From positions 15,048,501 through 15,112,500 of the forward strand of contig NC_036447.1 of the NCBI RefSeq assembly GCF_002775205.1: a stretch of 64,000 bases of DNA, written 5' to 3'. The notes below the pieces were generated by a model. The model saw only the letters and a list, made by a program, of their open reading frames with translations, made no database searches and was not told the origin of the DNA. A program made the translations under genes and the position numbers. This stretch comes from Xiphophorus maculatus. Lineage: Eukaryota > Chordata > Actinopteri > Cyprinodontiformes > Poeciliidae. Of the stretch, positions 3,498-55,761 are shown piece after piece (the stretch's first letter is position 1; each line of letters begins with the position of its first letter).

Positions 3498-6400
3498 CTG
3501 GGACCAGACAAGGAGAAGGGAATAATTGTTGACTATACAAGAAGGTGAAGCTGCAGAAGCTGAAGCACAAAACAAAATCTGTTTGATGTGCATTTTTGAG
3601 GCATTTCTTCAATAATATTGAAGCTTAAATTGTTTACTGATACTGGAGGCATGTAGCTTTCTTGGTAAGACTTTAAAGTGCTTTGCAAAAGTAATTGTAC
3701 TTCTTTAACTTTTCCGTTAACTATTATGCTTTACTTTGTCCAATTAAATCCCTACAAAACACTTTCAAGATTGAGGAAGGGACATAAGAAATGCTTTTAT
3801 GAGACACTGTAGTTTATTCAGCCCATGTTCCATAGTAACATGTAATTTTCCTGAAAAATAAAGTGTTAAAAGTTGAAGCTGAGTTGAAGCTTAAGTTATA
3901 AACCTTGAAATATCTTATGGGAACCCACCTGCTGTTGAGGCAGCAGTAGATAACAGGATTATACATGGTGGAGCTCATGGCTAGCCACAGCACTGACAGG
4001 TAAACCTGCTGGATGTATTTCCACTTCATCAGACGTTTATTGAGACCGGTTGCTATGAAGTAGAGATGATACGGCAACCAGCAGAGGGCAAAAGTCACCA
4101 CCACAATGATCATCATCTTTACCACCTGTAACAGAAACAAAGGGCAGCAGTGAGGAACATACACAGTATTCTGCATGCCTATAAAAGTTACAAATGAAAA
4201 ATGGTTCATGTGCATCTCTCAAAGTCCATCAGTTTATCATTTTGGCCATCACTTGGACGATTGTAAAAAACCAGAAAAAAATTATTTTGTAAATTATTAT
4301 GTTTGTTTAGTTTATTTAATCTTTGCTTAATTTATTTGTCCCACCATAACAGGGTAGCTGTCTGCAGTCAGTAAATATGAGAACCTCATTCCTGTTTGTC
4401 AGACAAGGACTCAAACAACACAAAACTCTTTTTAGAGATCGATTTCTCATTACAAAAATCCCATGCTGACAGAATTTTACCTTAGTGACACAGTCTACAT
4501 TGTGTCAGATAAAACAGTTGATGGCAGCGGTGGAAGACACTTACAGAATGGGAAGCTTTGGGCACTCAACAAATGCTGTACTCCTCTTTTAAGCTTTTCT
4601 TTCCCCTTTACCTCAGATGTTATTATAATCCATTTTGTACGCTGAAGTAAAATATAACAGAAAATGTTTGGACAGTGTTGTTAATTATTTATTTAAGTAC
4701 ACAATGTGCCAGGTCCTTCTAGACAACTAGTCAGATGCAAAACAGACCCACTACTGCAGTGCTGCTTGTGTGTTAACATGACAGCATCAGTTGCCCCCGT
4801 GGACATAATACTTAATACTAATATCTGTCCTGGTAGATTCAGATGAAATTAGATCTCGCTAAATGCAACAATTCACCTTCTGAAAATTTGTCCTGAATTT
4901 TCAGATCTTCCACAGGTACAGAGCAAAAACATATAAACATAAGCAATTTATTCTATACCATCACTATTTAATATGCTAAAGATGCACGTTTCTCTACTTT
5001 AATCCTCACTGCCCTCATCCTGATTTTAAGGATTCTCTCATCCTTATCAGGCCGACATCCTCCTGACAAGAGCTCTTGCAGCTTCTCATTTTCATCACTA
5101 CTTGATTCTAATTCACCTTCACTATGCCTATGAACAGTTTGGATTAAGTCTACTTTTTTTTGACAAATGTGCCTGTAAAGATCAGTCACGGATTGTCTCG
5201 AAGCGCTGCATGGGAATGCGGTTCTCGTGACGCAGGCTGGTTCTCAGAAGTGCTCAGCAGGGATTCTTGTAGAGGAACCACTAGAGACAAAGCAGCCTAC
5301 TTTGAAATCTAAACAGTGGTCTTTGTTTTGAGTGAAGGTTTCAAAAAGGTTTATGGTTTAACACAAGTCATGTTGTAAACTGCACTGTGTGGCTCCATGA
5401 GAGTCATAAAATGGTATTTTATTTAGTTTTTTTGTGTGGACATAAAATAGAAGCACTCAGGACAATATAATCCAATGTTATGGGGAAAGGGATCAAAGAT
5501 TTTAGGTTGACAGCTCACCCCACTTTTTTTACAGCATTTGCAGTGAACTTTCACAGAAATACACATCTGTATATTTTAACGGACATGTGCCGTTTTGGTA
5601 CGTGTAGCTCCAATTTCTGTTACTGGGAAAAATCAAGTTTGTTAAGATTAAGTTCTTTGTTTTTTCTTAAGCCACATCAGGCCTGACATTTTGTGTAGTT
5701 GTGACACCTTTCTGGAGAGGACCCTCAGATGAGCCACATTAAGTGTTCTTAAGAAGGAGAACACTTAATGTTCTCCTTCTATGGATAATGCGTTTGGCCC
5801 TGTCTTCATTTTTTTTGTTTCCTTTATTTAACCAGGTAAACCCCATTGAGATCTAGATCTTATTTTCAAGAGGAACCTGGGCAGAAGTCTGCAATACACA
5901 GCAACCTGGTTACAAAATAAAACTAATTAATACATATGCACAAATACATATGTCATTGTTTAACCATGACTAAACTTTTGCTTTTTCATCCTATACACTT
6001 GAAAACAGGCTTAGAGTTTATTTGCTAAGTTTTTTTCCTAAGCGAAGCCTTAAACAACTGCTATTGCAGTTATTTATTTATTTTACTTTTTTCACAGAAA
6101 GTACTCCTAGGTCTGTACTTCTGTGTTCCTTATTTTTGTGTCTATGCTATGTCTTGTTTAAGCCCTAGTTGGTTGTGGCTGATCGGTATTCATACTGAGC
6201 TAGGTGCTGTTGGGGATATATATGTATATATATATATATATATAAATTCTCCCTATTAAAGGGGAATTTTCCTCTCTGATGTGGTTACATACATGTGAAA
6301 GAAATCGAAGCCATCATTGTTTATTGTCCTAATATCTGAATTTCTGCAGGTTTCAACTTGGTCACTAATGGTCTGTACATTAGTGTACAGTCTTCAAATA

Positions 6401-21400: not shown

Positions 21401-24400
21401 TGAGAGCCAGGGCCTTTAGATCTCGGCTAGAGTGAGAAATGAAGAGATTTTTTTGAGCCCAAAATAATTTTGAAATCGCCATCACGCCCACAAATATCGC
21501 ACGATTGGTATCAAAGTCGGTCCTCACATTGATACACATGTCTGCTCCGGTAAAATGTTTTCGAAATTTATCTAGACCGTACGGTTTTCTGTCACGGTGC
21601 TTCAGAGCAAAGTCATGCGACAGGATTCTCTAGGCTGTCTCAGGCTCTGTCACTACCAGTTCACACCCTGCTGAGACCATTATTTACCATAGCAACGGAA
21701 CTCAAGAGGCTATTGGCTGTTGGTTAGGACTACAAATACGCATCACTGTAGTTCTATCTATAGTGGAACCCTCAGTTGAAACAGATCAGGACTGAACTGG
21801 CCTTTACAACTACTTTCTGCTATGGGCTGTATATAACTGATTTAACTCAGTAACTGTTACACATGGGATTAGTTTGGAACTTTAAAATTAAGCATAATAA
21901 TAATTTCAAAATAAAAGCCTTGAATATTTTTAAATCAGATATTTGCTCTGTTGGGCAATATATAACTGATTTAACCCAATGACTGTTATACATGGGATTA
22001 GTTTGGCCCTTTGAAATGAAGTTTAACAACAATTCCAAAATAAAAGCCTTGAATATTTTTACATCAACTACTTGTGTTTTGAGCATTATATAACTGATTT
22101 TATCCAATGACTGTTATTCATGGGATTAGGTTGGCCCTTTGAAATGAAGTTTAACAAAAATTCCAAAATAAAAGCCTTGAATATTTTTACATCAACTACT
22201 TGTGTTTTGAGCATTATATAACTGATTTTATCCAATGACTGTTACACGTGGTATTAGTTTGGCCCTTTGAAATGAAGAATCCTGCAAATTTCAAAATAAA
22301 AGCCTTGAATATTTTTACATCATGTAATTGCTCTTTTTGGCTTTATTTGACTTTTTCATCCAAAGCACTGTTACACATGGTATTAGTTTGGCCCTTTGAA
22401 ATGAAGCATACTGAAAATTTCAAAATAAAAGCCTTGAATATTTTTACATGACGTAATTGCTCTTTTTGGCTTTATTTGACTTTTTCATCCAAAGCACTGA
22501 TAAACATAGGATTAGTTTGGCGCTTTGAAATGAAGCTTAACAAACATTTCAAAATAAAAGCCTTTAATATTTTTACATCTACTACTTGTGTTTTGAGCAT
22601 TATATAACTATTTTAACCCAAGGACTATTACGTATGGGATTAGTTTGGCCCTTTGAAATGAAGTTTAACAAAACTTCCAAAATAAAAGCCTTGACAACAT
22701 TTTAAATCATACTGAATGGTGCACGTCCGCCTTACTTAACGTTCTTGTGATTCTCAGCATGCTATTGATTACGTTGCAGCGTTCTTTAGCATCGATGCCA
22801 ATTTGTAGCGTGACAACGCCGGGCCCAAACCGACGGGCACGCCTTGGCAGGCCCCGGCTAAATTTCTGCCGAAATTTTCTAGTTGCCTAATATTCTTTTG
22901 TCAATACCACAGGTATTCTTCCTTTTCTATTTAATGGTCTCTAATTATCACTCATAGTCACTGATGAAGTCCATATGTTATTTTATAAAAGTAAAAAATA
23001 TATATGTCAAAAGTGTATCAGATCCACAGGTGGGATGTTGGTCTGCTTAATGGTGTGTTCCCACTGAGGCAGGCCTTAAGGTACATCAGGGCAGAGAGAA
23101 GTATCTAAGAGAGCCAAGCAAGTTTACCTAGATTCAAAACTTTCTCTTTAGATTTAGTACAACTCAGGTGGAATGAAGCTTAGCGACAGGGCAGACACAA
23201 CTCCAGAAAACCAGACAAAAATCCACTGGCACCCCTGAACCAAGATATCATCCAGCCACAATCCACAATGAAAGACAGTCTCAGATCTTCTGCTCTGCCA
23301 ATATAAGGAGTTGGCAAACACAATCCCTTTGGGTCTGATTCCTAATAAAAAGTGCTAATTTTGCAAGAGCATAAAAAAATTGCACATGCAGTAAGCACGA
23401 GTGTTGAACGTAATCTAAAAAGTTTGCATGTGCAGCTGATAGCTTAATTTAACTCCACAGCCTCTCACCCGCACAATCTCCTCCCATAGTAGGAGCCATG
23501 GACAGTTCTTTAAATGTAAGATTCTTCAGCAGCCTTGTTTACCAGCCCTCCTACTTGGATGTGTTCCCGTTAATTAATGGCTTAATTTTCTAATCAGCAT
23601 TTCGACAAGTTTTGTTGATTCAAATCGGGTATGTTGCATAAATCTTGCCAACTCACAATGCTACACATCACTGTGCTAATATAGTAATTGATCTGGTTAC
23701 ACTGCAAATAAAAAAAATCTAAATAGATGACAGACAATTTGCATTGGCCTTGAAGGACTTTAAAGGTAGAATGATAGTTTTTCTATTTTGTGATGCACTG
23801 ACTGACCGCTGCACCAAAATGGAGATTCTTATAGGGAATTTTGCAGAAATTATATCAAATGACTATTTGCCATTGAGTTAATCACAAAAGATCAACTTAT
23901 TACAGATTATTCAGATGAAACAAAGGTGATTCCATTAAGCATTAGCAAACTTCCAACACACAAAATTTTGCTGTCTGAACTAATCTTTAGCGTTTTTCCT
24001 GTGTACTAGTTAGGATAACGATGTTGGTACTTGGCCCAAAGCACTGCTGTTTCTGTGTACTGCTGAGCTTCAGAGCAACTGAGGCACAAACAGAAAATAT
24101 ATCTGCCTAACCTGATCTCTTCCCAAACAAGAAGCCCCACAGTCCCTTATTCGTCACAAAAAATTATTTGTGAAACAGACTTTCTGTGGCACAGCTCATT
24201 ATTATCACAGTACATTCATAGAAAAAGTAACAGAATGCCTGAAAGAAGTATTAAACAGAGAAATAAAGCTGATCAATATTATTCCACAAAGTCAGTAACG
24301 GCTGACCTGATTTCATCAGGCTGCTTTTTCCATTACTATCAGGCTCTGATTGTGAAGCTCTATCGCCTCTTGTTTGCAGTGATGCCTCCTTAGTAAATCT

Positions 24401-27400: not shown

Positions 27401-30400
27401 AATATACTTGGTGCAGTAATTTTTTTTAGTTTTAATAAAATCTTAGTGCTTTTACATAAGAAATATTAACACAATTAACGACGTAACAAAAAGCTTACAT
27501 AGGGCCTTAAGGTTTAACCTTTAATTTTACTAAGATGTTTTGTATTCATGTCTTTATCTGTAGGATTGACTTTCATGAAACATGTTGCAAAAAAAGGTAA
27601 TGGAGAATGAATGCTTTCAGCCACACTAGATGCATTCAGACAAATAAGCTTAAATGCAAATTCCTAAGGGATTGTCCAGAGACCTGTAATTATTCGGTAT
27701 GCTTGAATCATGACAAAATGTCAAAGTACTGCTTCCAAATATCTTGATCTTAGCTCATTTTATGATTAAAGATTAGAAGAGCAGGTTACCTGAAAGTCTG
27801 TTACAGGCAAATAAACACAGTTTATTCCCCGTTTGCATCATTTTAGCTTTCAGTTGCGCTGCCGTTTGAAGCAACACAAGACATGCTTCAATTCCATCCA
27901 AAAGCAAAAACCATCATTAAGCTTGCTTACCTTCCTTTTAGCTCTGAGCTGTCCATGATAATTGTCAGATGAGTCTCCAGGAATCTCACTACCCCACAGT
28001 GTCACCCCCACGATGGTGTAAGTGATGCCCATCACCACTAAGGGCAGCACATATACTAGCACAGTCACTATGATATGATACCTGAGGGGAAAGAAAGGAA
28101 ATGTCACAGGGTGTAGGAGAACATAAAAAATGTTGATGTTAAAACATTGCGGTTAATCCTTTGCAAGTACTGGCTAATCAGTTTAAGTGTAGAGCAATCA
28201 CAGATGGCACTGCTACAGAGTGGTTACAATCCTTTTGAACTCAGCTCCCATTTCAAAATCTGCAATCCAATTTAGCAAGCCAAGCACCAAGAGTACGTGG
28301 CGGGTGGGACAGAATTAATTTTGTTCCTGGCTTAGATTTTTTTTTTTTATGTTCCACTTTAAGCAGTAATTCACTCACACCTAACAATGCCCTGTTACAG
28401 CCCTGATCAGAAGCTTACAAGACTTCATCTTGACTATAAACCCTCACGGTTATTTGATTGAACCAGTGACGTGTGGTGAGGCACTGCAAAGCTGGTGAGG
28501 CACTGACTTAATCATAATCAGATATACAAATGTAGACCAACTGCACCTGAAATTTCGCGCATGCGGACAACGTTGGAGGGCAAAAAGACAATTCTTTACA
28601 TGCCAGCTAAATAAAAAAATAATACTTTACAGTACAAACCACAGGGTGAAAATAGCAATATAAACTATTTTATCATTATATTTTTCCATTATGACAGGTG
28701 AGGCTCTGCCTCACTTGCCTCCCCTAACTGCACGTCACTGGATTGAACGTTCCTTTTCAAGTGGCATCTTGATCACACATTTTTTATCCACTGAGAAGCT
28801 TCTGGCATAATTGCAGATGGATATTTGACCACTGTTCTTGATCATTTCTGTAGTTTATTTAAATTGCCAGGTTTCCTGGCACAGCTTTTAGGCATAGAGC
28901 ACAAATTATTTTGAGTAGGGATTCTGATAACAGCATTTCCATTCTTAATACCAACATGGTCAGCTATTCTAAAACTAGCTTTGATGATTTTCTTTATGCC
29001 ACTTTATCAAAAACGATCAACCTCAGAAAGAAAGTATGAGAATAATCCATGATTCACCAAGTATAAGCTGACCATAAAGTGAAAGATGTTAGAATATGAG
29101 TGTCGTAGTGAAGAAAGCTTAACATCAAAGCAGTTCTAAATTAGATGGCATCAGAAAAAAAAGAACCCTTTCAAGTAAATTTGCAGCTTCCCAGAAGGAG
29201 TTGTGAAACACCTTTTCAGAAAAACATTTATCAGAGGATACAATGGTTAAGCTATTTGAACAGGAAGCATTTGCTGAGCAGCAAAGTTGATGCTTAATTG
29301 TGATGGTGGCAGCATCATGACGAGGTGTGTTTTCTATCAGTGGTAGTGGTGCATTGCAGACAGATGGCAAGATAATTAAGAAAGATGACAATCTTCAACA
29401 TCACCTGAAATTATTAGCCAGATGGTTGAAACTTGGACATACAGTAAATGGACTTTCCGACGAGACAATGATTCCCACTGAACATAAAACTATCCTTCTG
29501 GTGTGGATCAAGCAAAGAAATTACCAATAAATTTAAGACTGTGCACCAAATATTTGTGTTTAATTTTAATTAATGTTGCATATTGTTCAGTCAAACCTTT
29601 GATTAAGATTGTATTTTAACATTTTCTCACAAGAAAAAGACAAATGTCAAAAACTAATAGCGTTATATGTTATCATCATATGTAATATAATTACATTCTT
29701 TCTACCAGTTTGATTAAAAAAAATATCAGGTATCCCTATGGTGGTGGCTGAGTTAAAGCCACCACCATAGCTCAAGCGGAAACCTATAAACCTCTGAAAA
29801 TTACATGGAGAGAAACAAATAATCTTTCTGAAATTATATTTCCTCACATAAAGTGGTCATCTGCCATGCGAGGCCAGGCGACATAGCAGATGGTTCTGTG
29901 CGGTTGAGCTCGAGTGGTGGAGAAATAGCACAGAGGGAAAGCCAGTACCACTGCCATGCTCCAGATACTGACGATGACTCCCATGGTGACCTTTGCTGAG
30001 AGACGGGGCTTCAGTGGGTGGATGATGGCCATGTATCTGCGGAAAGAAGGTTGGCATTTTTAAAGATGGTCTTTGTGCTTGGACACACAACATAGTTAAT
30101 TACTGATTAATGGATTTAATCTTACTGAACTCAATGTGTGTTAATATTCCACACACAAAATTGTGTCTTCTGGAAATAAGAAATTTGTGTGAAAATGATA
30201 ATATAATAAGAAGAAGGAAATTAAAACAGAGCAGCCTGTTACGGATGTAATTTTGTAAGGTTTTGACCGGGTGGAATGACCTAATGTACCAGTTTTCACT
30301 GAGCTGTAAGGAAAAATGTTGGATCTGTTTGTTGTAGTTATTGTATGCATTGTCTGTTGTGTTGAGAAGCTACATAATTTCCATAAAAATGATTATTTCA

Positions 30401-33400: not shown

Positions 33401-35422
33401 GCGTTAAAAATGGGAAATCTTTTCTAACATGCTGGCACAAACTCCCATTCACAAAGCTACTGATTCAGCCTGATTGTGGTGTAACAAAAATAAATATATT
33501 CTCAACTATTATTGTAACCATTTATTGTCTAATAAAAATCTAAAAGGTATGACATGCCTATGTATGCAGCCCACCTGACTTAAGATTTGTAAGACCACCT
33601 TCTGATATAACTTTGCTGATTTTTTTATTCATTTGTCATTGAAACAAAGCTCAAGTTCAGTGAGAGTATGTGGTGAGCATCAGCAAGCATCAAGAATTGC
33701 CACATTTTCTCAGTTGGATTTAGAGCTGGGCTTTGACTAGACCATTTTAACTAATTTCTATGATTTGAATTAAACCTTCCCACTGTAACTCTGGCTCTTA
33801 ATGAGGTTTTCCTGCTTGAAGATAAACCTCTATTTATGTCTAGCATCAGGTTCTCTCCAGAGATTTCATGTATTTAGTTCCATCTACTTGACAATCAGCC
33901 AGTTTCCCTGTCCAAGTTGAAGGAAAGCCTACCGACAGTCATCACCATGTGTTGAGGCAGGAATTGTGTGCAGAGTTGGTTTTACTCCAAGCACATTATT
34001 TTGTACGAATGCCAAAGAGCAACATTTCAGTCTAATTTGACCACAGCAGTTTCTTTCACAAGTTCACTGAGTCTCTTACACCTCACAATCAAATGGCTTT
34101 GTTTCCACAATGGCTCTGTTCTTGTTACTCCTCCATAAAGGCCTTAATTGTAGAGAGCACAACTAATTGTTCTGCTGTGAACGGATTATAATCCCAAGAT
34201 GTAAACCTTAATTGGCCAATCTTTCTAGGTGGACAACCATGACCTGCCCGGTCATAGCTGTGATGGTTTACATTTATACCATTCACTTTTAATTTTCAGA
34301 TTACTGACCAGATCTCTATTCTATGCTTGCAATATTGATTTAAGAGCTAAACTTCCCAACAACTTGTTCCTGACCTGTCTGCTGTGGTTCTTGGTGTTTG
34401 TGATGTTGTTTCTTTAGTGATGCTCTTTAACAAACCTCTGAGGCCTTCTTGGAACAGCTGTGTTAACATGAATAATACGCAGGCGGACTCTAACTCTGTG
34501 AATTCTGAAAGCAATTTGATGGGCATGGTTTTATTTAGGGGTATTATAGTAAAGAGTTTTGCATTTCTCAGTTTTCTTTTCTTTATAGAAAAAGGTCAAA
34601 CAAAAGTAATAATTTACTTAAACTTCCAATTTGCTCAACATGTTATGTTTGTCTAAACCTCAATAAAACCACTCTACGTTTGTGGTAGTAATAGGGGAAA
34701 ATGTGAAAAAACAAAACAAACAAACAAAAAAACACCGAAAAAAAAAAAACATGAGAGGATGTCCTCTAGTGGAAAATAAACATCAGGGTGGCTAATGAAG
34801 AGAGCAAGAAGATAATTGGGAAGTTCAATTCAAACCGAAGTCTCGGAAAAGACATAAAAGCCGAATAAACCGCAGTTTATCTTCAAGAATTGAATACGAG
34901 AAATAATCAAGTCTAATTCAATTCAATTTTCTACCAGCCCTGGTGTAGCCCTACATAATTAAATTTAATGCAACCATACTTGCTAATATACAACATAGAC
35001 TAAGAATCACTGCATTATCTGAACTATTATTAATGTTAATTTCCATAGACCCACCTGTCCACAGCTATTGCAGTCATGGAGTAGATGCTTGCAAACACAG
35101 ATGTCACTGGGAAGAAGTTTTGGAATTTACAGTAGGCATCCCCGAAGTACCAGTCTCCATGGGCAGCGTAGATAAAGTTTATCAAAGTGTTAAAAGCGGC
35201 CATCGACGCGTCCGAAAAGGCCAAGTTAAGCAGAAAGTAGTTGGTCACCGTCCGCATCCGCTTATGGGCGAGAATGATCCATATCACGATGAGGTTTCCA
35301 AACACGGCCACCGCCAGCACGGAGCTGTAAGCGACCGACCAGAGAGCGATGCGCCACGGCGGCTGCACGAACTGGTTGGTGTAATTCGATGTTACATTGG
35401 ATCCGTTGTATGGCGTCCCCAT
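3173..35422 (-). CDS. tacr3: Tachykinin receptor 3 (neurokinin-3 receptor), complete, 5 exons
   Basis: This is a class A G-protein-coupled receptor for tachykinins, expected in the neuronal plasma membrane and coupled to Gq. Coding exons on the minus strand: 35055-35422, 29848-30036, 27931-28081, 3929-4125 and 3173-3497. All junctions are GT/AG and the frame stays open for 1230 nt, giving 409 aa. The N-terminus has three N-glycosylation sequons (Asn6, Asn9, Asn13). Seven membrane segments follow, with the DRY motif at residues 122-124 split by intron 1, CWLP near 251-254 in helix 6, and NPVIY at 292-296 in helix 7. Four introns at the positions of the mammalian receptor gene, and near-identity to human NK3R through helices 1-3 and the [10 protein letters not shown] segment, favour tacr3 over tacr1 or tacr2. 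Which teleost paralogue it is cannot be decided here. The N-terminus is shorter than in human (465 aa total there). Confidence 0.93.
3929..4125 (-). CDS. tacr3: tacr3 coding exon 4 (helices 6 and 7)
   Basis: The acceptor is TGTTACAG|GTGG and the donor AGCAG|GTGGGT. The exon is 197 nt. It encodes [20 protein letters not shown] (helix 6) and helix 7 with [15 protein letters not shown]. It ends two bases into Arg302, which exon 5 completes. Confidence 0.93.
5737..5780. repeat. Overlapping hairpins with exclusive pairings
   Basis: Segment 5737-5749 is the perfect reverse complement of 5758-5770. Segment 5752-5762 is the perfect reverse complement of 5770-5780. The two stems share bases, so only one can form at a time. 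Confidence 0.85.
5810..5940. repeat. Degenerate teleost interspersed repeat
   Basis: The stretch has the common fish-repeat text in which a tttaaccaggtaaaccccat block is followed by an attttcaag..gaacctggg block. It is non-coding and intronic. The exact family was not determined. Confidence 0.45.
8180..8705 (-). mobile_element. Degenerate Tc1/mariner element, 5' half
   Basis: The plus strand reads as the complement of a common fish Tc1-like element. A gtaaaggtggacagtcatgtctt block (complement of the HTH region) is followed by an acaactttactcctgacttgtctgctg block. The terminal stretch holds atgttggtctaacacaaaatc and acaaaatgggagaatgttcaagg. Many stops and deletions make it non-functional. It lies in tacr3 intron 3. 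Confidence 0.7.
8376..8407. repeat. 11-bp perfect hairpin inside the Tc1 remnant
   Basis: An atttcgtttga arm is followed within ten bases by its exact reverse complement. It is a short snap-back structure within otherwise decayed transposon sequence. Confidence 0.7.
10594..10782. mobile_element. hAT-type MITE, diverged copy
   Basis: Terminal inverted repeats are recognisable: a ggtatcaaactccgg start and a gatcagagtttaagacccctg end. The interior holds a degenerate tgattcaaatgg block. A better copy of the same family is at 38178-38402. No target duplication could be confirmed. Confidence 0.55.
10960..11650 (+). mobile_element. Degenerate Tc1/mariner transposase remnant
   Basis: Recognisable transposase DNA runs in order. 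First come the HTH part (ctacctaaactgacaggcagc) and the gagaagcagccaagaagcac block. Next is the catalytic-region text gtggaggtcgactttccagcagg followed by ataataacactaatcataaagc, corresponding to FQQDNDPKHTA. The 3' tail has aaaattttgaaaaccatgtata. Frameshifts break it; an open frame at 11220-11444 is only a fragment. It lies in tacr3 intron 3. Confidence 0.75.
12690..12960 (+). mobile_element. Second-type Tc1-like transposase remnant
   Basis: The stretch ctcaagaaatctgccaagaagccaaagcctgggcacaaataggcctcctaaat is written here only in part: aaagcctgggcacaaatagg followed by cctcctaaatgaacaataac. It matches the catalytic region of another fish Tc1-like family, ahead of its DDE segment. A 73-codon frame at 12676-12897 covers part of it. 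It is broken and non-functional. Confidence 0.5.
12961..15599. other. tacr3: tacr3 intron 3, repeat-poor stretch
   Basis: No coding signal is seen; several open frames of 65-121 codons on the minus strand lack family features and codon bias. A 22-bp segment at 13825-13846 recurs exactly at 15304-15325, where it forms one arm of a perfect hairpin. A 13-base A run lies at 13151-13164. Confidence 0.4.
15309..15385. repeat. Two adjacent perfect hairpins
   Basis: The first stem has 21-bp perfect arms at 15309-15329 and 15335-15355 around a five-base loop. The second has 12-bp perfect arms at 15359-15370 and 15374-15385 around a three-base loop. They sit three bases apart in tacr3 intron 3. The first arm, with its left flank, is also found 1.48 kb away at 13825-13846. 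Confidence 0.9.
15600..16190 (+). mobile_element. Tc1/mariner remnant with internal deletion
   Basis: Two recognisable pieces of the same family remain. One is ccagagatccacagctcaag followed by tgggagaatctgctgacaga near 15626-15661. The other is the transposase C-terminal text with gtaaagctggtagagaagtacc near 15957. Between and after these it is decayed. No coding capacity remains. Confidence 0.6.
16617..17553 (+). mobile_element. hAT-superfamily transposon with BED-finger remnant
   Basis: The element occupies 16625-17545 (921 bp). It is flanked by perfect 8-bp target duplications gtttcctc at 16617-16624 and 17546-17553. Its ends are tagtgatg and catcacta, and both subterminal regions are rich in gagccg/cggctc motifs typical of fish hAT ends. 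An internal GC-rich segment holds a diverged duplication (about 16755-16825 and 16848-16928). At 17176 a frame starts with [13 protein letters not shown], the BED zinc-finger beginning. The finger's Cys pair (codons 17240-17242 and 17249-17251) and the [10 protein letters not shown] histidines (codons at 17300 and 17315) lie in another frame because of a small deletion near 17238. The catalytic domain is absent, so it can move only in trans. Confidence 0.85.
17176..17335 (+). pseudogene. Broken BED-type zinc finger of a hAT transposase
   Basis: Translation gives the conserved aromatic start WTHFN and then, after a frame change near 17238, C-R-L-C and [10 protein letters not shown], the two halves of a C2H2-type BED finger. 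In the intact family this N-terminal domain binds the transposon ends. Here the frame closes at a TAG near 17330 and no RNase-H-like domain or dimerisation region follows. It is a relic of the element at 16625-17545. Confidence 0.7.
17899..18510 (+). other. Possible solo LTR or spliced non-coding unit
   Basis: The 612-bp stretch begins TGTTA and ends TAACA, as LTRs often do. It contains a GC-richer leader at 17970-18160, a donor-like CAACGTG|GTGAGT near 18150, an acceptor-like TTATTTACAG near 18437, and an AATAAA at about 18467. No target-site duplication is visible, which weakens the LTR reading. It may instead be two exons of a non-coding RNA. Either is speculative. Confidence 0.25.
18511..21029. 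other. tacr3: tacr3 intron 3, mid portion
   Basis: The stretch holds a degenerate repeat at about 19150-19260 (TTTTATTTGTATAGCCCCTTT type with caaagtgctttatatc, common in fish 3' repeat tails). An A-rich patch lies at 19575-19620. Nothing coding can be supported. Confidence 0.4.
21040..22882 (+). mobile_element. Helitron/Helentron-like non-autonomous element
   Basis: A 5' segment (about 21040-21830) of mildly GC-richer unique text is followed by a tandem array. A 3' segment (22715-22882) comes next, rich in cgggcc/ccccgg blocks. It contains an aaatttctgccgaaattt inverted repeat and ends in CTAG followed by T. An internal minisatellite, a subterminal hairpin and a CTAG-T end are features of Helitron/Helentron derivatives. 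The left boundary is approximate and no Rep/helicase coding is present. The family call is by structure only. Confidence 0.45.
21820..22715. repeat. Seven-copy tandem repeat, about 128-bp unit
   Basis: The marker ttagtttgg (twice slightly changed) recurs at 21869, 21998, 22126, 22254, 22383, 22512 and 22640, a period of 128-129 bp. Each unit also carries tttgaaatgaag and aaataaaagccttgaatatt blocks. Copies fall into two subtypes: one with a tgtgttttgagcattatata segment and one with ctctttttggctttatttga. This suggests block duplication within the array. Confidence 0.92.
22883..27930. other. tacr3: tacr3 intron 3, 5' portion
   Basis: No coding frame with family support was seen. A Tc1-type 5' fragment lies near 25810-25930 (ggcaggccaacacaaaatca). 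Short hairpins lie at 25069-25095 (tatcttttg/caaaagata) and near 25137-25160 (ggttaacat/atgttaacc). An AT-rich run lies at 26358-26380. Otherwise nothing recognisable. Confidence 0.4.
27931..28081 (-). CDS. tacr3: tacr3 coding exon 3 (helix 5)
   Basis: The acceptor is TTCCCCTCAG|G and the donor AAG|GTAAGC. The exon is 151 nt. It encodes [20 protein letters not shown] (helix 5) and the third intracellular loop start ending in LRAKRK. This is the expected exon of the family and its donor faces the giant intron 3. Confidence 0.92.
28456..28748. mobile_element. hAT-type MITE with perfect 8-bp target duplication
   Basis: The element occupies 28464-28740 (277 bp), with ends cagtgacgtg and cacgtcactg, perfect inverted repeats. 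The 8-bp sequence gattgaac is repeated exactly on both sides (28456-28463 and 28741-28748). It lies in tacr3 intron 2. Its ends match a MITE type seen across teleosts. It has no coding capacity. The intact target duplication indicates a rather recent insertion. Confidence 0.9.
29250..29530 (+). mobile_element. Tc1-like transposase fragment
   Basis: The stretch has the gtgatggtggcagcatcatg core of fish Tc1-like transposase genes, followed by agaaagatgacaatcttcaa and actatccttctggtgtggat. It is truncated and mutated, in tacr3 intron 2. Confidence 0.65.
29736..29770. repeat. 14-bp perfect hairpin in tacr3 intron 2
   Basis: The arms are 29736-29749 and 29757-29770 (ctatggtggtggct and its reverse complement), with a seven-base loop. 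It lies about 80 bp from the tacr3 exon 2 donor on the intron side, so in the pre-mRNA it would fold close to a splice site. Confidence 0.9.
29848..30036 (-). CDS. tacr3: tacr3 coding exon 2 (intracellular loop 2 to helix 4)
   Basis: The acceptor is TTTCCGCAG|A and the donor AT|GTGAGG. The exon is 189 nt and phase-matched to its neighbours. It begins by completing Arg123 and continues [15 protein letters not shown], the tachykinin-receptor second intracellular loop. Helix 4 and part of extracellular loop 2 follow, including the conserved Cys in TICYVAWP. Confidence 0.92.
30037..33559. other. tacr3: tacr3 intron 1, 3' portion
   Basis: Mostly unique AT-rich DNA. It holds a short Tc1-like piece at about 32420-32500 (tggaatggccaagtcaaatt followed by cttgacctaaatcc). 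A tagaa-type run with tctttattgtcccctatagg lies at 33228-33290, the 3' end of a common fish retroposon. The block 32690-33000 is more GC-balanced and could be conserved non-coding sequence. No gene was seen. Confidence 0.4.
33560..34690 (-). mobile_element. Near full-length degenerate Tc1/mariner element
   Basis: The plus strand is the complement of a Tc1-like transposon from tail to head: tcagttggatttagagctgg, gggctttgactagaccattt, ctccataaaggccttaattg, aggtggacaaccatgacctg, ttcctgacctgtctgctgtg and caaacctctgaggccttctt occur in the expected order. About 1.1 kb long, with frameshifts and stops throughout. Short open frames at 34229-34656 are antisense artefacts. It lies in tacr3 intron 1. 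Confidence 0.8.
34691..35054. other. tacr3: tacr3 intron 1, 5' end
   Basis: An A-rich run at 34706-34750 is followed by unremarkable AT-rich DNA up to the exon 1 donor at 35053-35054. Nothing else was seen. Confidence 0.5.
35055..35422 (-). CDS. tacr3: tacr3 coding exon 1 (N-terminus to DRY)
   Basis: This exon starts at ATG 35420-35422 and ends at an AG|GTGGGT donor inside the Arg codon of DRY. It encodes residues 1-122 plus two bases: the glycosylated N-terminus, helices 1-3 and the conserved extracellular Cys before helix 3. The Met precedes a segment colinear with human NK3R (NQFVQP.WRIALW), which supports this start. A further upstream coding exon is not excluded but is not needed. Confidence 0.93.
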
Positions 35423-35860
35423 CCTCCTCTGCTTTTATCCGAACTCAGTTAAGATCTAATCTATCAATATATGTTGTTTTTTTTTTGTCCTTTAATCTAT
35501 TTATTGAAGCGCAAAACTGGATTGGCAGAAGAGGATTTGCGCATAGGCGCCATTGCGCGCAAATTAAAGAGTCCCTATCTTCCTCGATGTCGGTCTGCAG
35601 TCGCTCTGGACAGCTCTCCAATCCGTGCGTAAACCAGCTGTGATCCGGTGCCTGTTGAATGTGGGTGTGAACACACAGCCTTCTCCGTCCGCAGCAACAG
35701 GCGAAGTGACGCACAAGTGCGCCGAACAGTGAAACAGATTGATCGATAGTTGTGTGGCTGCTGTTTCAAACTTCATGAATAACAAACAACATGAGCTGTC
35801 TGTCTCCGCAGTGTATAATCTGTCACGGAACACTGAGGTTTCTTTATCTCCAAAATGATG
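35423..35860 (-). promoter_or_regulatory. tacr3: Presumed tacr3 5' UTR and promoter region
   Basis: Immediately upstream of the tacr3 start codon the DNA becomes richer in CpG (35530-35720, with gcgcataggcgccattgcgcgc) than the surrounding AT-rich sequence. That is consistent with a CpG-type promoter. No TATA box at a convincing distance was seen. The transcription start could not be placed. Open frames on both strands here have no family match. Confidence 0.4.
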
Positions 35861-43669: not shown

Positions 43670-46664
43670 ATGGAGCCTTTATTGGTGAGAGACACAAAGA
43701 ACAATTGATCACCTCCTTCTTATGCTTCACATGGATGTTGAAAGGTGTAAATAAGTGTGTGCCATTAACATTTTTTTAAAATATGAGACTAATCCTATAG
43801 TTTTGAACAACATGTAGAAAATATCTGCATGTAGAGGATCTATGTTTTGATTTTATAGTTATTTATTAAACCTTAGATGAGAAGATTTAAAGAAGTTGGA
43901 CATTAACATGCATAAACATACAGTACATGCATGCATCAAGCAGCTCACACAATGAACTAGAGTAATTTGGTGTAAATTAAAAGTAACTAGAAAAGTTACA
44001 TTTACAAAATATTACATTCATCAATCACGTATACTTTGCTAAGATGAGGTTGGACCTCTTTTCAGACCCTTCTTTGTAACTCCAAGGGATCGTAAAAAAA
44101 AAAAAAAAAATCATTGTAAATCATTGAATTTGACCAGACCTTCCATCATCAACAACCATGCTCCACTTAAACTCACCTGGATCCCATTATTCTCCATCGT
44201 GATGCTCAGTTTAAGTTCAGTTAAAGCTTCTTCAGAAAATAAAGTGCTGGTGGGTTTTCATCTCCATGCCCTGCCATATTGTCTAAGGTTTTAAGCAGTT
44301 TTTGAAGTTATTTTGCTGTAGAAAGGACCCGCCTACCTGATACAGAAAATGTTCACATTCCATATTACTACATTGGGAAAAGATAACGTGCTGGTATGAT
44401 AACCACAGTGTAAATGGGACACAATTATTTCTCTTTTCACTCCAAAACGTCAGCATTTTTGACTTGAAAAAATAATCAACTGTAAGATTGATGCTGAATG
44501 TTTCAAATAAAATCTTTTTTATTTATTTATTTTTTTTAGTGTTAGTGTTGTGGTGCATTAGTCACACTCGCTGGTTGTGACCTGCCAGTACAAGCCATGT
44601 TCACAACAGTTCTCACAGGAGCATCAGAGAATAATCACATAATTAGATGCAGACGTTGTCAACAGATTCCTATTTACACATGCATCAGAGAGCAGTGGAC
44701 TTTCAGTGCATGAGACAAGTTCCCGCAGGTTTTCTGGACAGCTTATGAATAAGTGATTTCACAGGAGTTGTGCTGATATACATTCATGTGGTGCATTTAT
44801 GAATCGTGACAAAAATGTTTGAGAAAATGTAAATATAGCAATGTTCATATCTGTATATTCTGGAAAATATCCTAGAGCTGATATATGTAAATCAGACCTT
44901 ACCCATCATTAAATTGATAGAAAAACAACACAATTTAACCATTTGGTACCAACTTCTACTTAGAATAGATATGTAGGGTTTGTCTAATTTCCTGTTAATG
45001 GATGAGTGAGGATAATATTTGTTTCAATGTTAATTTGTTAGGGAAATTAATCGTTAATCATTCTTGGATTCGGTTTTAATTATGTATTCATGCTCTTGCC
45101 ATATTCAATTAATTCTCTGTTATTCATTACAGTCTGTCCATATTAGTTAATTCCTCTGTGAAACCATTTAAGTTATTTCTTGTAGTCTCTTCTTTGTGCA
45201 TTGTGGTTCATTCTACTAGATAGCAGATAATAGTATCTGTTCTTATTTTTCACCTTCTGTCTTAATTCCTGTTTTGCCTTTCTCCACAGAGAAATCTCTC
45301 ATCTAAGCTCATCTAAATCCTACACCATTATATCTTTGCTATTTAATTAAGAAGACTGCTTATCTCCTGTAAGCCTTTGTATTTGGGCCCTTTAAGAACA
45401 TCAGTATGACATTTTGGGCTTTAGTTCACTTAAATTTAAGGCATCTGCTAAATTATGTAATTTCTTTGAATTATTCTGTGTTGATTTCTTAAACTTCTTT
45501 TTTCCCCAGCTGGTCTGAGTGGTAGTAGTTGCTTCTGGTTTTCTCAAGGTGCTCTGTGTGCACCCATGTGTCACATACATGAGCAGAGTCTCAGCTGACA
45601 AATGTCATGCTGGAATATGCAGCTATATGCAAATATTGTTTGAAACATATTTCAAACGATAAATGACTGATAAATTAGACAAAAAGTCTAATTTAAGGTG
45701 GAGAAATTAAAAATCTTCACTCCCGAAAGAAAGCTCTTATGCTAGAGGTGGTGCAGAATTAAACCAGCACATGTGGTTTTCATTTAGTCATAAAAACAAG
45801 AAGACACATCCTATTGCATCACTTGTAGCCGTCAACTGGGAACCAGTGGCTGCCAAACTGGAAGTAGTCATGGACGTTTGTGTCCACTTTAGCTGCCATC
45901 ATTTTCTACAGCTACCATAAAGCAGTCTCATGTTGTGTTTCTCTTAACACTGTCAACTACTACTGCCGTGCTGTATGTCCCCATCCAACACATTTAGCAC
46001 AGATTTTTGTAGTTTGTGGTTTTGTTTAGGTGAGAAAAGCTACCAGTTGCCATCAGAGCAGAAATATGTTGAAGGAACATTTAAACATACCTAAACTTCA
46101 GTTCACTAGTATTTCTATGCGGGTACTGACTTTGACTTTTATCTTTCAACACATTTTTGTGATATAAAAATGTCGGCTCTGAACTTAAGTGGTTTTTCCT
46201 AAGCAGTAAAGTGCTTTTGATAAAATGATCTGTCAAATAATTTAATGCAAATGCAGCCTTTTTATCTCATTAAAATACAGTTCCACTCCCATCAAACACA
46301 GGTGGGTGTTTCTTACCTGCAACATTTGATGCATGATTCATATTCTTCTGGTCCAACTGCACTTATACTCACAGCACTTATAAGGACGCCAGCTAATGCT
46401 GCTGTGCTGCAAATACCAGAAGGTCTTTCCAGACTCAGTGTACATGAAGTCTTTAGAAAATGACAAACAAATGACAACAAACGGAATAGTTGGACAAAAT
46501 ATAATATTGCACAATAACAAGTTTTATGGACATATCTGAGTTGATAATTTAGCAATTGTCTTTCCTTCATCCCTTCTGAGTTGGCCAGAAAGCCTGACAG
46601 GATGAATGACAGCGATCCTTTCAAAAATAGTCTTTCAGACACCAAATGTTTGTTTTGTCTTTTA

Positions 46665-46769
46665 CTCTTCTGTCTTGTCCTCTTTTGCTTCGCCATCTTT
46701 TACTTCATCAGCTTTTGCTTCTCCATCTTTTACTTCATCAGCTTTTGCTTCTCCTTCTCCACCGTTATC
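46665..46769 (-). other. cnga1: In-frame acidic extension after the cnga1 stop
   Basis: Directly after the cnga1 TAG (46770-46772) the same frame runs 35 sense codons to TAA at 46662-46664. The codons continue the composition of the tail (Glu, Asp, Lys, Ala). They include a tandem unit AKADEVKDGE repeated about two and a half times. Either the TAG arose by recent mutation inside a longer tail, or some translation reads through. It is not counted in the 724-aa protein. Confidence 0.7.
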
Positions 46770-47759
46770 CTATTCTGTTTTTGTCACCTCACTTTTGTCT
46801 TCGTCTGTTATTTCTTCTGCTTCTTCCATAACCTTTTCACCAGCTTCTTTCCCTTCTGTTTTTTCTTCTGTTTCCACCACGTCTTTTTCATCAACTCCTT
46901 TCTCCTCTTCTGCTTTTTCTTCTTTTTCCTCCACAACCTTTTCATCAGGTTCTTTTTCTGCTTCTTTCTCTTCAGCCTCTTTTTTCCCTTCATCTTCCTC
47001 CTCCTCTTCTTCTTCCACCTCCTCTCCACTCAGGCGCTCCAGGTCTGTAATCCGCTGTCTCAGGGCTTTGCCAGTATTTTTGTAATTTCCCAAAATCTTC
47101 TTAAGCTTCACCTGCATCAGCTCCATTGTGCTGTACAGTTTGGTGACTTTCTCCTCCAGCTCCTTAACTTCAGGCTTAATGTTGGCGGGGTCCAAGTCTA
47201 TGAGACCATCTTTCATCAGGATCTGCCGGCCTTTCTCCTCTAGCATGGCTTTGGCATCTGGATATTCGATCAGTGACTCCATCAGATCATCTTTGGAAAG
47301 ACAAAAGAGGTCAGAGTAGCCAATGCTTCTAATGTTAGCAGTCCGCCTGTTGCCTGCTTTACTGCCTTTAATATTAAGGATACTAATTTCACCAAAATAG
47401 CTACCACTTCCCAGCACTACAAATTGTGTAACTCCATCATCGGCAACAACTGCTAGTTTTCCATCTTTTATGATATACATCTCACGACCAATGTCACCCT
47501 TTTTGCAAATGTAGTCTCCTGGACTAAAGACCTGCGGACAAAGTTTGAGCACGAGTTGGATCAGGAGGCCGGCCTCACAGTCCGCAAAAATCCGAACTTT
47601 CTTCAAGGTGTCCATGTGAACTTGGATGGCTATTTCCGCTCGTAGCTTGTCAGGAAGATATCTCAGCACCTCCCTCTCATCCTGTGCCTTGCCGTTATTC
47701 CACAGGTAGTCAAACCACTTAATAACTCTAAGCTCAAGTTCTTTGCTGACTTTTCGAAC
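46770..47759 (-). CDS. cnga1: cnga1 last exon: C-linker, cGMP domain, coiled coil, Glu-rich tail
   Basis: The acceptor is TTCATAG|G, phase 0, 990 nt including TAG. Residues 396-724 include the C-linker, a complete cyclic-nucleotide-binding fold and a leucine-zipper-like stretch ([16 protein letters not shown]...), which in this family sets subunit stoichiometry. Human CNGA1 ends soon after that zipper. Here 85 more residues follow (640-724), mostly Glu, Lys and Asp, recalling the GARP part of CNGB1 in composition only. Confidence 0.93.
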
Positions 47760-50383
47760 CTATGAATAGAAAAAACAGTATATTGTTAATATCCCTTCAG
47801 GTAATTCTATAATTGAAGCTTCTCATTCAGACTTCAGTATGATATTCTCAGACTTCAGTATGATATTCACCTGCATGTATTGTTTGATGTTGTCGATACG
47901 GGCCTGGAACTGGGCCTGTGCAGCATTCATATTGGAAATCATGGTGGCAATGTTTCCCACAATGGTAGCAAAGATCAAGACTCCAACTAAGAAGTCGACC
48001 ACATGAAAGAGAAACTCTGAATCAAGAGCAGGTGGTGGAGTTTCACCAATAGTGGTCAGAGTCAGTGTGGACCAATAAAGGCTGAATGCATATTTTCTCA
48101 TAGGCTGCCCAAACTCAGGCTCCTCTGGATCATCGAGAGCTGGGTAGACCCAGTCATCAGCACCAAAACCAATCGACTTGGAGAATGAAAAGTAGAAGCA
48201 TGCATTCCAGTGGATGATAATGAGAATGTACATGATTAGGTTTGCAATGCGGAAGATGTTTGGATAATTGGTTTTAGTCTCCGTCCTTGTGAAGAACTCC
48301 ATCATTCGGCCAATTCTCAGCAGCTTGTTGATACGGATCTCGGGGTAGTGAAGGCCAAAGACAAAATAAAGTAAGTCTGTTGGCAGCATGGAGAGAACAT
48401 CGAGACGAAACTGGAAGCTCTTAACGTAGTTATCTCGAAGCAACTTCTTATCTTTCACCATCAGGCCTTGCTCAAGATACCCTGCAAAGAAGGAGATGCA
48501 ATACAGAAGCAGGGTCAGTTTTAATTGTAAAGTTTATGTATACCAAATATATATTTTGATTACAAATAGTGCAAATGCGCTTCTCTTGTTTTACAGCACA
48601 TTAGTTGAGTTTGCAACTAGCACTGCGTAGTGCCGACCTCAAGTATAAGCAGTTTGTGTCCAGGATACATGAAGACAGTACTGTATTCCCTTCTTTATCC
48701 ATCTGCCGCCTGTACCAGATTAATTGTGTTCATCTTCACCCGGGGCATAAGCCTATTCTAATAGTCAACGGGTGAGACTCGGGATAAACTCTGGACAGCT
48801 AGACAGTTCAGGACAATACCAAGACAGGAGCTTCTTTTATAGAAGACTCCAAATCGGGACTTGGGTGGCTTCTCCCTGTGTGTGTTTTCTAAATAGAACA
48901 AGGCAACAAGGAGTTGAAGTTAACCTGCAGCCACCAAGCAATGTGCCCCACCTCCCATCCATTGACTACTGGAGAAAGGCATCAGCCCCACAGCCACCGT
49001 AGAAAGCAAAGCAAGTATAGACAGTGGATGGGTGAACAATGAAGAAAGAGGATGCCTTTATACTCAACATAGAACACATTAACTTTATTATTTTAAATGT
49101 GACATTTAAACATTTTTTGACAAATTCTTTTTTTCTAATTTGGGGATTTTTTTTGGTAGATGAAAAAACTCAAGTTTGTTTTCACCTGTTCTGGTTCTGA
49201 CGAACATATCCGCCAGGTAAATTAGATCAGAGCTGCAGTCCAACAAAACCCAGTAGAGAATGTAGTCCTGTTGCAGCTCCTCAAAGCATGCCCTGTTGGA
49301 AAATAGTAATAAACTGTTTATCTCCTTAACATCTAACAGAATAGAAATTGTGACATTCTTGACTGCTCTAAATTGGAGCTAAGTCTAGAATTTGAGAAAG
49401 AACCTTGAAATGACTTGGCCTCATTTCATGCAAAAGTTAGATAGTGCCATTGAATAAACACTTGACAAGAAAGGACAATGAAGCAATGAATTAGCTAATT
49501 AGCTAATTTACCTGGCTATAATCACCGTCCAATTATACATGACTGGCATTGCAATGATGAAAAGCCAGTTGTAATACAAATTCCCTGCAGGATTAATGAC
49601 GAATATTTCCTTGGGTCTGTGAACAAGCAGAAGAAATCATCCACCTGAACGAGCATAGCAATTATTTCCAGATATTCTTCCAAATTATGAACCTACTTGT
49701 CTTTGTCCTTTTCCTTTGCTTTTTCCTTTTCTTTCTCCTTTTCTCTCTCTTTCTCCTTTTCTTTCTCTTTCTCCTTTTCTTTCTCTTTTTCTCTTTCTTG
49801 TTCCTTTTCTTTTGCTTCTTTTTCTTCCTTCTCCTTTTTCTTTTTTCTGCAAGATTCAGTGAAATGGACAAAGACCATAAGATTTCCTCAAAGGCTTGTG
49901 ACATTTCTCAAGACTTTCTAATGTAAAATAATTACTCTTTCTTCTCCTTCTTGTCTTTCTTCTCTCCCTTCTCTTTCTTGTCTTTCTTCTCCTTTTTCTT
50001 TTTCTTTTTTTCCCTGGTGAAAAAAAAAAGTCATTTAACAACTGAGTCCACATGGCTAATCAAAGAAAAGTGAAGAGCTCAGACATATTTTCAGAACTTC
50101 AAACTGTACCTACTCTTCATTGTTGTTGTTGTTATTCATGTTGGCCAGACGATTTGATTGAGGTGCACTTCTGAAAGAAACACAGCATGTTACACATAAA
50201 GTTAATTGATGGGAAAATCTGTTGTCTTGTTTCATTCTTATGATTTGTGCATTTGACTCAACAAAGGTCTGCCTTTGAATGGTAAAGTATTTGAAGTATG
50301 ACTTACAGGTCATCCTCACTTTGCTCTTCACTGTCTGTGGTAAGTTTGCAAGCTGTGTGACCTGACATTGCATTGGTGGACAT
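46770..50383 (-). CDS. cnga1: Rod cGMP-gated cation channel subunit alpha 1, complete, 8 coding exons
   Basis: This is the alpha subunit of the rod photoreceptor channel that closes when light lowers cGMP; it acts in the outer-segment plasma membrane with CNGB1. Coding exons on the minus strand: 50307-50383, 50114-50170, 49936-50013, 49697-49846, 49512-49616, 49186-49292, 47871-48481 and 46770-47759. The frame is continuous (2175 nt, 724 aa). After a short acidic/Asn-rich N-terminus comes a Lys/Glu-rich segment (about residues 45-121), then S1-S6. The pore is [11 protein letters not shown] with its Glu near residue 338. The C-linker begins WFDYLW. The cGMP-binding domain contains [13 protein letters not shown] and NRRTANI. 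A coiled coil (about 596-638) and an 85-residue Glu-rich tail follow. The 107-bp exon and Lys-rich N-terminus favour cnga1 over cnga2/3. A teleost duplicate is possible. Confidence 0.93.
47831..47870. repeat. 21-bp tandem duplication at a cnga1 splice donor
   Basis: Two adjacent near-identical copies of tcagacttcagtatgatattc begin right beside the donor of the pore exon, on the intron side. The first base pairs of the donor (GTGAAT) are part of the repeated text's edge. It is harmless to coding but lies where U1 and intronic splice enhancers act. Confidence 0.85.
47871..48481 (-). CDS. cnga1: cnga1 transmembrane/pore exon
   Basis: The acceptor is TTTGCAG|GG and the donor CAG|GTGAAT; 611 nt. 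It encodes the end of S2-S3, the S4 segment with its regular Arg residues ([17 protein letters not shown]), S5, the pore loop and S6 ([20 protein letters not shown]). The donor is followed at once by a 21-bp tandem duplication in the intron. Confidence 0.93.
48540..49130. other. cnga1 intron with an interspersed repeat
   Basis: The stretch 48740-49035 is a diverged copy of the repeat at the left window edge (gtgagactcgggataaactctgg, cccatccattgactactgg and gacagtggatggg recognisable). The remainder is ordinary intron. The 76-codon plus-strand frame here is not a gene. Confidence 0.5.
49186..49292 (-). CDS. cnga1: cnga1 107-bp exon (S1-S2 loop and S2)
   Basis: The acceptor is CCAACAG|G and the donor ACAG|GTGAAA. 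It encodes [18 protein letters not shown] and the following S2 residues ending RTRTG. The 107-bp length and the residues match the equivalent exon of other vertebrate CNGA genes. Confidence 0.92.
49512..49616 (-). CDS. cnga1: cnga1 S1 exon
   Basis: The acceptor is GTTCACAG|A and the donor CCAG|GTAAAT; 105 nt. It encodes [19 protein letters not shown] and the first membrane segment ending in VIIAR. It joins the Lys-rich cytosolic N-terminus to the membrane domain. Confidence 0.9.
49697..49846 (-). CDS. cnga1: cnga1 Lys/Glu repeat exon
   Basis: The acceptor is CTTGCAG|A and the donor GACAA|GTAGGT; 150 nt, phases match both neighbours. Translation is an almost pure Lys-Glu alternation ([10 protein letters not shown]) with a few Arg, Gln, Ala and Asp. 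The underlying DNA is a purine-only hexamer-like repeat, so copy number is likely to vary among individuals. The plus-strand frames of Leu/Phe or Ser/Phe over this exon are antisense artefacts. Confidence 0.85.
49936..50013 (-). CDS. cnga1: cnga1 Lys-rich exon
   Basis: The acceptor is TTCACCAG|G and the donor AAAGA|GTAATT; 78 nt. It encodes [20 protein letters not shown] and a similar end. Together with the next exon it forms the charged N-terminal segment typical of rod CNGA1. It is similar in composition to the exon at 49697-49846, suggesting exon duplication or repeat spread. Confidence 0.85.
50114..50170 (-). CDS. cnga1: cnga1 Asn-rich exon
   Basis: The acceptor is TTTCAG|A and the donor GAAGA|GTAGGT; 57 nt. 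It encodes [18 protein letters not shown]. The Asn run comes from an AAC/AAT repeat. Phases fit exactly between the start exon and the Lys-rich exon. Confidence 0.85.
50307..50383 (-). CDS. cnga1: cnga1 start exon
   Basis: The ATG at 50381-50383 is the first in an exon whose acceptor is at 50412 (TCTTTGCAG|G). It encodes [20 protein letters not shown] and continues to a CT|GTAAGT donor. A second in-frame ATG five codons on (Met6) could also be used. Upstream of the first ATG the exon is 5' UTR. Confidence 0.8.
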
Positions 50384-54079: not shown

Positions 54080-55761
54080 TTACAGTGTTGCAAGGACCTC
54101 AGCAGCTGCTGTGGCTGCAGGAACATCAACAACATCAACGTCAGTAGCGACAGGGCCGGCCACATCGACAGGCACCTCAGCAGCTGTGTCCACAGGAACA
54201 ATGTCAACAGGGGGCACGGCAACAACAACACCATCAACTGGTGCAACATCTGGAGGGATGTCAACCACTTCAGGTTCAGCAGCTGCTGCGGGGTCTGCTG
54301 CCGGGGCTGCTGTGGGGTCAGCAGGTGCGGTGTCCACCACAGTCGGCTCAACCTCAGCTACCTCCGTCTCTTCAGCTTCCTCCTCTTCGTCAGAGTTCAG
54401 AGGAGCACCAGGAGCACCGGGCACTGCAATTCTAGGAGCGGAGTTCCCATCCTAACAGAAAAAACAAACAAACAAAAAAAAAAAACTGTGTGAAGGCCAC
54501 ACCATATTTCGGAAATATGGTGTGGAATACTTAATGAGCAAAGGAAAATGAATGCAAAAGGTAATGTTCAAAAATGTTGGGATGTGCATGAGAAGTTTAA
54601 ATTATTCTAAATGAAGTTGGCACACATTAAGTCAGGTAAAGTGCACACAAAAATGCATTTACTCCTAGAAGTTTTTAAACTTGGTTATATATGAACATAC
54701 TGAATTGTTTAGCTATTTAAGTTTGAGGATGTTTATATTGACTCACTGTCCCACTTTGTGGCTAAGTGGAGAAAAACACATTATAAGCTACACCTATGAT
54801 TTGTCTCCATTGAAAGTACAAACTGTCAACTGACAAACACATGAAAGTAAAGTGAGCAAAATGTTGAACACAGTCACTGTTGAAACTCGCTTAAAAACAC
54901 AAAATATTTGGCTTAAAGTTTAGTCTAGAACCGCACCTCGGTTTCCTCGTCTGAGACGTCCTCTGCAGGGGCGGGAGCCAGCTGGGCTTGAAAAGCAACC
55001 ACCTGAAATAGATGTTGTTTTCTCTCTTCAAATGGAAAGTCTCGGCATATAAATGGGCTAATGCTGTCGTCATACTTACCGCAGGCGCAACAGCTGAATT
55101 AGCCTTTCCAAAAAAAAAAATCAAAAACCTTTTTGTTTATTAATCATTAGCTTATTATCTGTTAGTTTATGCAAAGTTTTCATATGATTTAACTTACAGG
55201 AGTATCAGCAGCTCGAAGGAAGGGATTTGCAAGCCCCTGAAAAAAACAAAAAAAGCAGATTCGCACTTGAAGTTGATGCTTAATGCCACATTATCTAAAT
55301 AAATTAACAAACCACTGATATTTATTTGTATAGGATGTCAAAAGGTCACCCTTCTTCCCCCACCTGCTGCTGGTATAGCCTGTACATCTCCATCAACCTC
55401 AGGGCCTCATTAGCGTGTGCTGCAGCCTGCTGGAAATTTAGAAAAATACCAGACATCTCCAGACATGAGCTACAACAAAGCCAATTATTCCTCCCTCTCA
55501 GACACCCGTCATGCTGTTTAGCTGATGACAAACCAAAGCAATCAGATCCAAATCGGAACTGAAAAGGAGGAGAGGAATCCTCTTACCTCACTACTCTCAC
55601 TGCCTGGTGCCTGCAGGGAAGTGAACAAACATTAATTAGTCTGGAAGAACAACAGTTTTTAAGCGTTAAATAAGTATATATCAAACAGTGAGACTGGCGA
55701 GACTTACAGGGGCAGCAAAGGTGGAGACCAGAAGGCACAGCAAGATTAAAACCTGCTTCAT
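54080..55761 (-). CDS. Acidic secretory calcium-binding phosphoprotein (SCPP), 7 coding exons
   Basis: Coding exons on the minus strand: 55708-55761, 55587-55610, 55364-55429, 55198-55236, 55080-55103, 54937-55002 and 54080-54451. All introns are phase 0 and all splice sites are GT/AG, giving 645 nt and 214 aa. Exon 1 is an 18-residue leader, MKQVLILLCLLVSTFAAP, a secretion signal. The next exon is APGSESSE, a short phospho-acceptor exon as in SCPP genes. A Gln/Ala exon (QAAAHANEALRLMEMYRLYQ) looks helical. SxE targets of the Golgi kinase Fam20C occur at Ser24, Ser86 and Ser111. The last exon (residues 92-214) is Asp/Glu/Ala/Val/Pro-rich with no aromatic residues. The expected role is a mineral-associated extracellular matrix protein. 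The member within the family cannot be named from sequence alone. Confidence 0.8.
54496..54524. repeat. 14-bp perfect hairpin in an SCPP intron
   Basis: The arms 54496-54509 and 54511-54524 are exact reverse complements around one base. It lies about 45 bp upstream of the last exon of the acidic SCPP gene, near its branch-point region. Confidence 0.9.

Follow-up and report, generated by a model that had tools for sequence, protein, structure and literature searches.

Tail-like codons past the TAG stop of a CNGA1-type gene in Xiphophorus maculatus and the case for a recent nonsense change

Vertebrate genes with stop codon readthrough, such as AQP4, LDHB and MDH1, in which the stop stands in the context UGA CUA, carry an in-frame extension past that stop. 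According to the portions of Jungreis et al. (2016, PMC5100048) drawn on here, ribosome profiling found readthrough in 42 human transcripts, while the conserved candidates then known from comparative genomics numbered 4 in human versus 283 in Drosophila. The same portions describe a second origin: a recent nonsense substitution that shifts the stop upstream also leaves a downstream open frame with a coding signature, and should be excluded before readthrough is called.

The locus described here lies in the window, a stretch of 64,000 nucleotides of X. maculatus DNA that was analysed as a whole, and belongs to a gene for a cyclic-nucleotide-gated channel subunit of the CNGA1 type. Teleosts have retained CNGA1 duplicates from a genome duplication, as stated in the part of PMC9803222 consulted. 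Like these duplicates (cnga1a and cnga1b), the window gene has a binding domain, a zipper, a pore and a Lys/Glu-rich N-terminus. It shares an in-frame extension past the stop with AQP4, LDHB and MDH1, but differs from them in its UAG GAU context, which is among the lowest predicted, and in having no local RNA structure. The coding-like open frame expected of a recent nonsense substitution is present after its TAG; such a substitution would also be restricted to one lineage, and the window gene is read in one genome.

The gene and its acidic tail

The gene is on the minus strand and is intact, with eight exons, GT/AG borders and 724 amino acids (725 codons including the TAG), in a model whose start codon and splice sites were chosen by reading the sequence, without a transcript. 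Since the eight exons join with GT/AG borders into one reading, the gene is not a visible pseudogene. Its parts, in the direction of transcription, are as follows.

50307..50383, minus: coding part of exon 1, including the presumed ATG start (spliced model, read by eye)
50114..50170, minus: exon 2 (spliced model)
49936..50013, minus: exon 3, N-terminal Lys/Glu-rich part (spliced model)
49697..49846, minus: exon 4, N-terminal Lys/Glu-rich part (spliced model)
49512..49616, minus: exon 5 (spliced model)
49186..49292, minus: exon 6, start of the membrane domain (PDB match, spliced model)
47871..48481, minus: exon 7, transmembrane and pore region (PDB match, Pfam, spliced model)
46770..47759, minus: exon 8, the last coding exon, with cyclic-nucleotide-binding domain, leucine zipper and acidic tail, ending at TAG (329 open codons; PDB, Pfam cNMP_binding and CLZ)
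46773..47024, minus: Glu-rich C-terminal tail, 84 codons, 52% D+E (composition count)
46770..46772, minus: TAG stop, context ACAGAA TAG GATAAC (sequence)
46665..46769, minus: 35 in-frame codons after the TAG, acidic and with tail-like codon phase (phase and composition tests)
46692..46751, minus: two tandem 30-bp units encoding EAKADEVKDG (repeat finding)
46662..46664, minus: TAA, the next stop in this frame (peak of the coding-like signal 3 codons further on)

The Pfam domains above cut-off, Ion transport (PF00520), cNMP-binding (PF00027) and CLZ (PF16526), would suit any CNGA subunit. The tentative assignment to CNGA1 draws on two results: three exon queries have CNGA1 as their best PDB match (6e-120 for exon 8), and in a six-row tree, which left out the C23 and C7 copies, the gene groups with bovine CNGA1 and the C14 copy, although the support (79/88) is weak. 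Further CNGA-like genes of the same genome are found on C9, C24, C11, C14, C23 and C7, besides weaker matches. In the domains of exon 8, identity to the window gene is 75% for both the C14 copy and bovine CNGA1, compared with 72% (C9), 69% (C24) and 68% (C11). Because teleosts retain CNGA1 duplicates, it is probably the fast-evolving member of such a pair. It is unlike the C14 copy in its long end branch in the tree (0.39) and its long Glu-rich tail; the C14 copy (L015), as read, ends in ...PETTKEEEKK without one.

The intron at 47760-47870 splits the gene between QYMQ and VRKV; the C9, C24 and C11 paralogues (L010, L011 and L012) are uninterrupted, and the C14, C23 and C7 copies match here in several pieces, as though split by introns. 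A perfect 21-bp tandem duplication (47827-47868) lies in this intron, between exons 7 and 8, directly past the donor site. Tandem Repeats Finder reports a 54-bp period inside the Glu-rich tail (46792-46965). The N-terminal Lys/Glu-rich exons are also purine-rich tandem repeats (49696-49845 and 49935-50006, periods 9-48 bp), and so repeats seem to be gained and lost at both ends of the CNGA1 protein.

Elsewhere in the window are minus-strand exons of a rhodopsin-type receptor (35039-35434, 27853-28152 and 3817-4218; Pfam 7tm_1, the middle one below the family cut-off), which we take to be a tachykinin receptor. A 129-bp tandem array of 6.7 copies (21830-22694) lies between its exons. A 123-codon open frame on the minus strand (54083-54451), rich in Val, Pro, Ala and acidic residues, had no Pfam match at E 0.001.

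The codons beyond the TAG

The sequence-only reading had pointed out that the frame of the tail stays open for 35 codons after the TAG and contains a repeated unit, and both statements stand. On the minus strand, the TAG at 46772-46770 is followed by 35 sense codons (46769-46665), DNGGEGEAKADEVKDGEAKADEVKDGEAKEDKTEE, and then by the TAA at 46664-46662. The two 30-bp copies differ at 1 of 30 bases (GGA/GGC, synonymous), which is too little for a selection test, and a partial third unit has 18 of 27 bases as in copy 2. The further claim that the composition of the tail is kept holds for acidity, D+E being 15 of 35 residues (43%) both here and in the last 35 codons of the tail, but less so for the residue mix: compared with the tail of 84 codons, there is more D, A and G and less E (P 0.064 by permutation). 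A 15-bp repeat of 1.9 copies (46656-46684) spans the second stop, and the purine-rich tract thus has no clean end at the coding boundary.

The open length by itself is ordinary, being reached by chance in 9.7-11.6% of cases: over all frames of both strands the window has 7705 stops, of which 895 precede at least 35 open codons, and dinucleotide shuffling of the stretch left it open in 9.7% of 20,000 trials. The content read in this frame is not ordinary: at least 15 D+E occurred in 0.0000 of 20,000 such shuffles, and all 35 codons begin with A or G. Under a position-specific base model of the tail, the in-frame reading is 44 nats ahead of the runner-up phase, a value attained in 0.0003 of 20,000 shuffles. 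Because the stretch is repetitive, nulls were added in which the bases of a repeat unit were shuffled and the unit re-expanded; the phase preference then gave 0.0012 (30-mer) and 0.0070 (15-mer), figures that are weaker yet fairer than those from dinucleotide shuffles and that, like the other P values, are uncorrected for the choice of this stretch by eye out of 64 kb. The likelihood per codon (-2.85) falls inside the range of held-out 35-codon blocks of the tail (-3.13 to -2.50). Measured against 3'UTR composition, the cumulative coding-like signal peaks at codon 124, the TAA being codon 121.

As a control, seven loci (L002-L008) yielded 15 open frames with 12 or more D+E within some run of 30 codons, and 0 of the 15 stay acidic in frame past the stop, as judged by eye over up to 45 codons downstream. 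The control is a weak one: the acidic stretch is often not terminal, the frames are open frames rather than annotated genes, and the overlap of L003 and L004 double counts.

These data bear most directly on the view that the TAG is old and that the stretch is purine-rich 3'UTR with a 15/30-bp repeat, never translated and in phase by chance. We regard this as rather unlikely, though it is a serious alternative. The ordinary open length fits it, as do the repeat crossing the TAA and unit-level nulls that reach just 0.0070 and 0.0012. Against it, both phase and acidity match the tail and drop near the TAA, and there are several stops in the other two phases of the stretch. The C14 copy offers a further point in its favour. 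Past the TAA of that copy are 29 open codons (EDGGGQKN...), which start with a motif like the one after the TAG; this GGTGGAG-containing motif agrees at 11 of its first 15 bases (P 0.0045 by shuffling, with the length chosen post hoc). A motif shared after both stops would be a hint that the position of the stop is old. The likeness over at least 24 bases has P 0.16 or higher, and in the best gapped alignment the C14 stop falls elsewhere in the tail.

How the stop may have arisen

The sequence-only reading had left three options, a recent nonsense change, readthrough, and a polymorphism or sequencing error. The first fits best, on account of the tail-like phase that runs to about the TAA; readthrough has both the stop context and the lack of RNA structure against it. 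We therefore somewhat favour the view that the TAG is a derived nonsense change, fairly recent and either fixed or polymorphic, and that the 35 codons were formerly the end of the CNGA1 acidic tail. The tail would originally have run to the TAA, 35 codons further. A sense codon at 46772-46770 would fairly recently have become TAG, in all individuals or in some, with translation presumably ending there, leaving the channel 35 residues shorter at its C-terminus. The loss of the tail end may have been tolerated because the tail lies beyond the binding and zipper domains, is of low complexity and apparently changes through the gain of repeats. Points against this history are the C14 copy, whose tail is short and lacks a long acidic extension, the motif after the C14 stop, the 15-bp repeat across the TAA and the somewhat different residue mix of the stretch.

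Several results bear on this history. If the stretch were a copy of the tail, it should resemble some part of it, but the best in-phase 30-mer match is 20 of 30, not above codon-shuffled tail (P 0.95); copying of the tail past its own stop was rejected, no donor having been found. A search of the same genome with the stretch, in which simple repeats were skipped, matched only the stretch itself. A tail-like phase that ends near the TAA in sequence that is neither a copy nor matched elsewhere is what one expects of the remnant of a recently cut tail. With regard to age, simulated neutral decay (substitutions only, started from tail blocks) left an intact and equally tail-like frame in 44%, 16%, 3% and 0.8% of runs at 0.05, 0.10, 0.15 and 0.20 substitutions per site. 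The simulation suggests that the TAG is young; if the stretch is untranslated, that state probably goes back no further than about 0.15 substitutions per site. For the lost codon, no neighbouring repeat unit matched the TAG region better than codon-shuffled sequence did (P 0.20 to 0.89 over five segment choices), and so no ancestral codon is claimed. Scans with the CLZ-plus-tail part (149 aa) in viral_contigs and with exon 8 (329 aa) in genome_contigs gave 121 and 588 pattern-matched stretches, respectively, and no relative, as expected because neither collection is animal.

An assembly or sequencing error at 46770-46772, with a true sense codon and a tail that continues to the TAA, would account for a coding-like signal that continues through the TAG, and repetitive stretches are prone to errors. 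Against it, lone substitution errors seldom occur in a gene that is clean elsewhere. The assembly, with 704 Mb in 101 contigs, is reasonably contiguous, and no second copy contradicts the TAG. We consider such an error improbable.

Programmed readthrough, in which a fraction of the ribosomes would continue beyond the UAG and extend the acidic tail of the channel by 35 residues, draws on the intact and tail-like extension, but is very improbable given the remaining evidence. No leaky context was found at the TAG, and no stimulatory RNA structure within 161 nt. UAG-GAU stands near the bottom in LINfs3 (score -0.228, with 2 of 192 stop-plus-triplet contexts lower), and its LINiter value of 0.020 ranks at percentile 24.5 among 50,000 random contexts, with weights from Table 2 of PMC4359377 that were fitted on human contexts; the authors of that model, in the sections used, state that several readthrough mechanisms exist. 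The RNA around the TAG is less structured than shuffles (z +1.72 over 161 nt), 196 of 200 of which fold as well or better. Nor was abundant readthrough found in tested species outside Pancrustacea, according to the cited portions of PMC5100048. In a bolder version, regulated readthrough of the UAG might let photoreceptors produce a shorter and a longer CNGA1 tail from a single mRNA, and the acidic segment added in the longer one, which recalls the glutamic-acid-rich GARP part in CNGB1, would tune the channel or its partners; this is, if anything, slightly less probable still. Judged by titles and abstract openings, the open-access papers listed by literature searches included none on CNGA1 readthrough; one of them, PMC7554890, contains both cnga1 and stop codon readthrough.

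Finally, the TAG might be skipped by alternative splicing or edited from A to I, giving UGG. Neither the acceptor scan nor local RNA folding supported these possibilities, which are extremely improbable. The 21 AG sites within 130 nt from the TAG have at most 25% pyrimidines in the preceding 20 nt, whereas the seven presumed acceptors of the gene have 70-80%, and the locally unstructured RNA around the TAG would offer little duplex to an editing enzyme.

Implications for CNGA1 tails

Shortening of a tail by a nonsense mutation would be nothing out of the ordinary, barring evidence to the contrary from close relatives. The main lesson as things stand is that tail-like codons past a stop are weak evidence for readthrough. 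If readthrough were nevertheless true here, the gene would be a vertebrate case beyond the UGA CUA type. If the TAG is recent, as we tend to think, the gene would provide a datable loss of a low-complexity acidic tail end in a sensory channel, and would be useful for asking about selection on the acidic tail.
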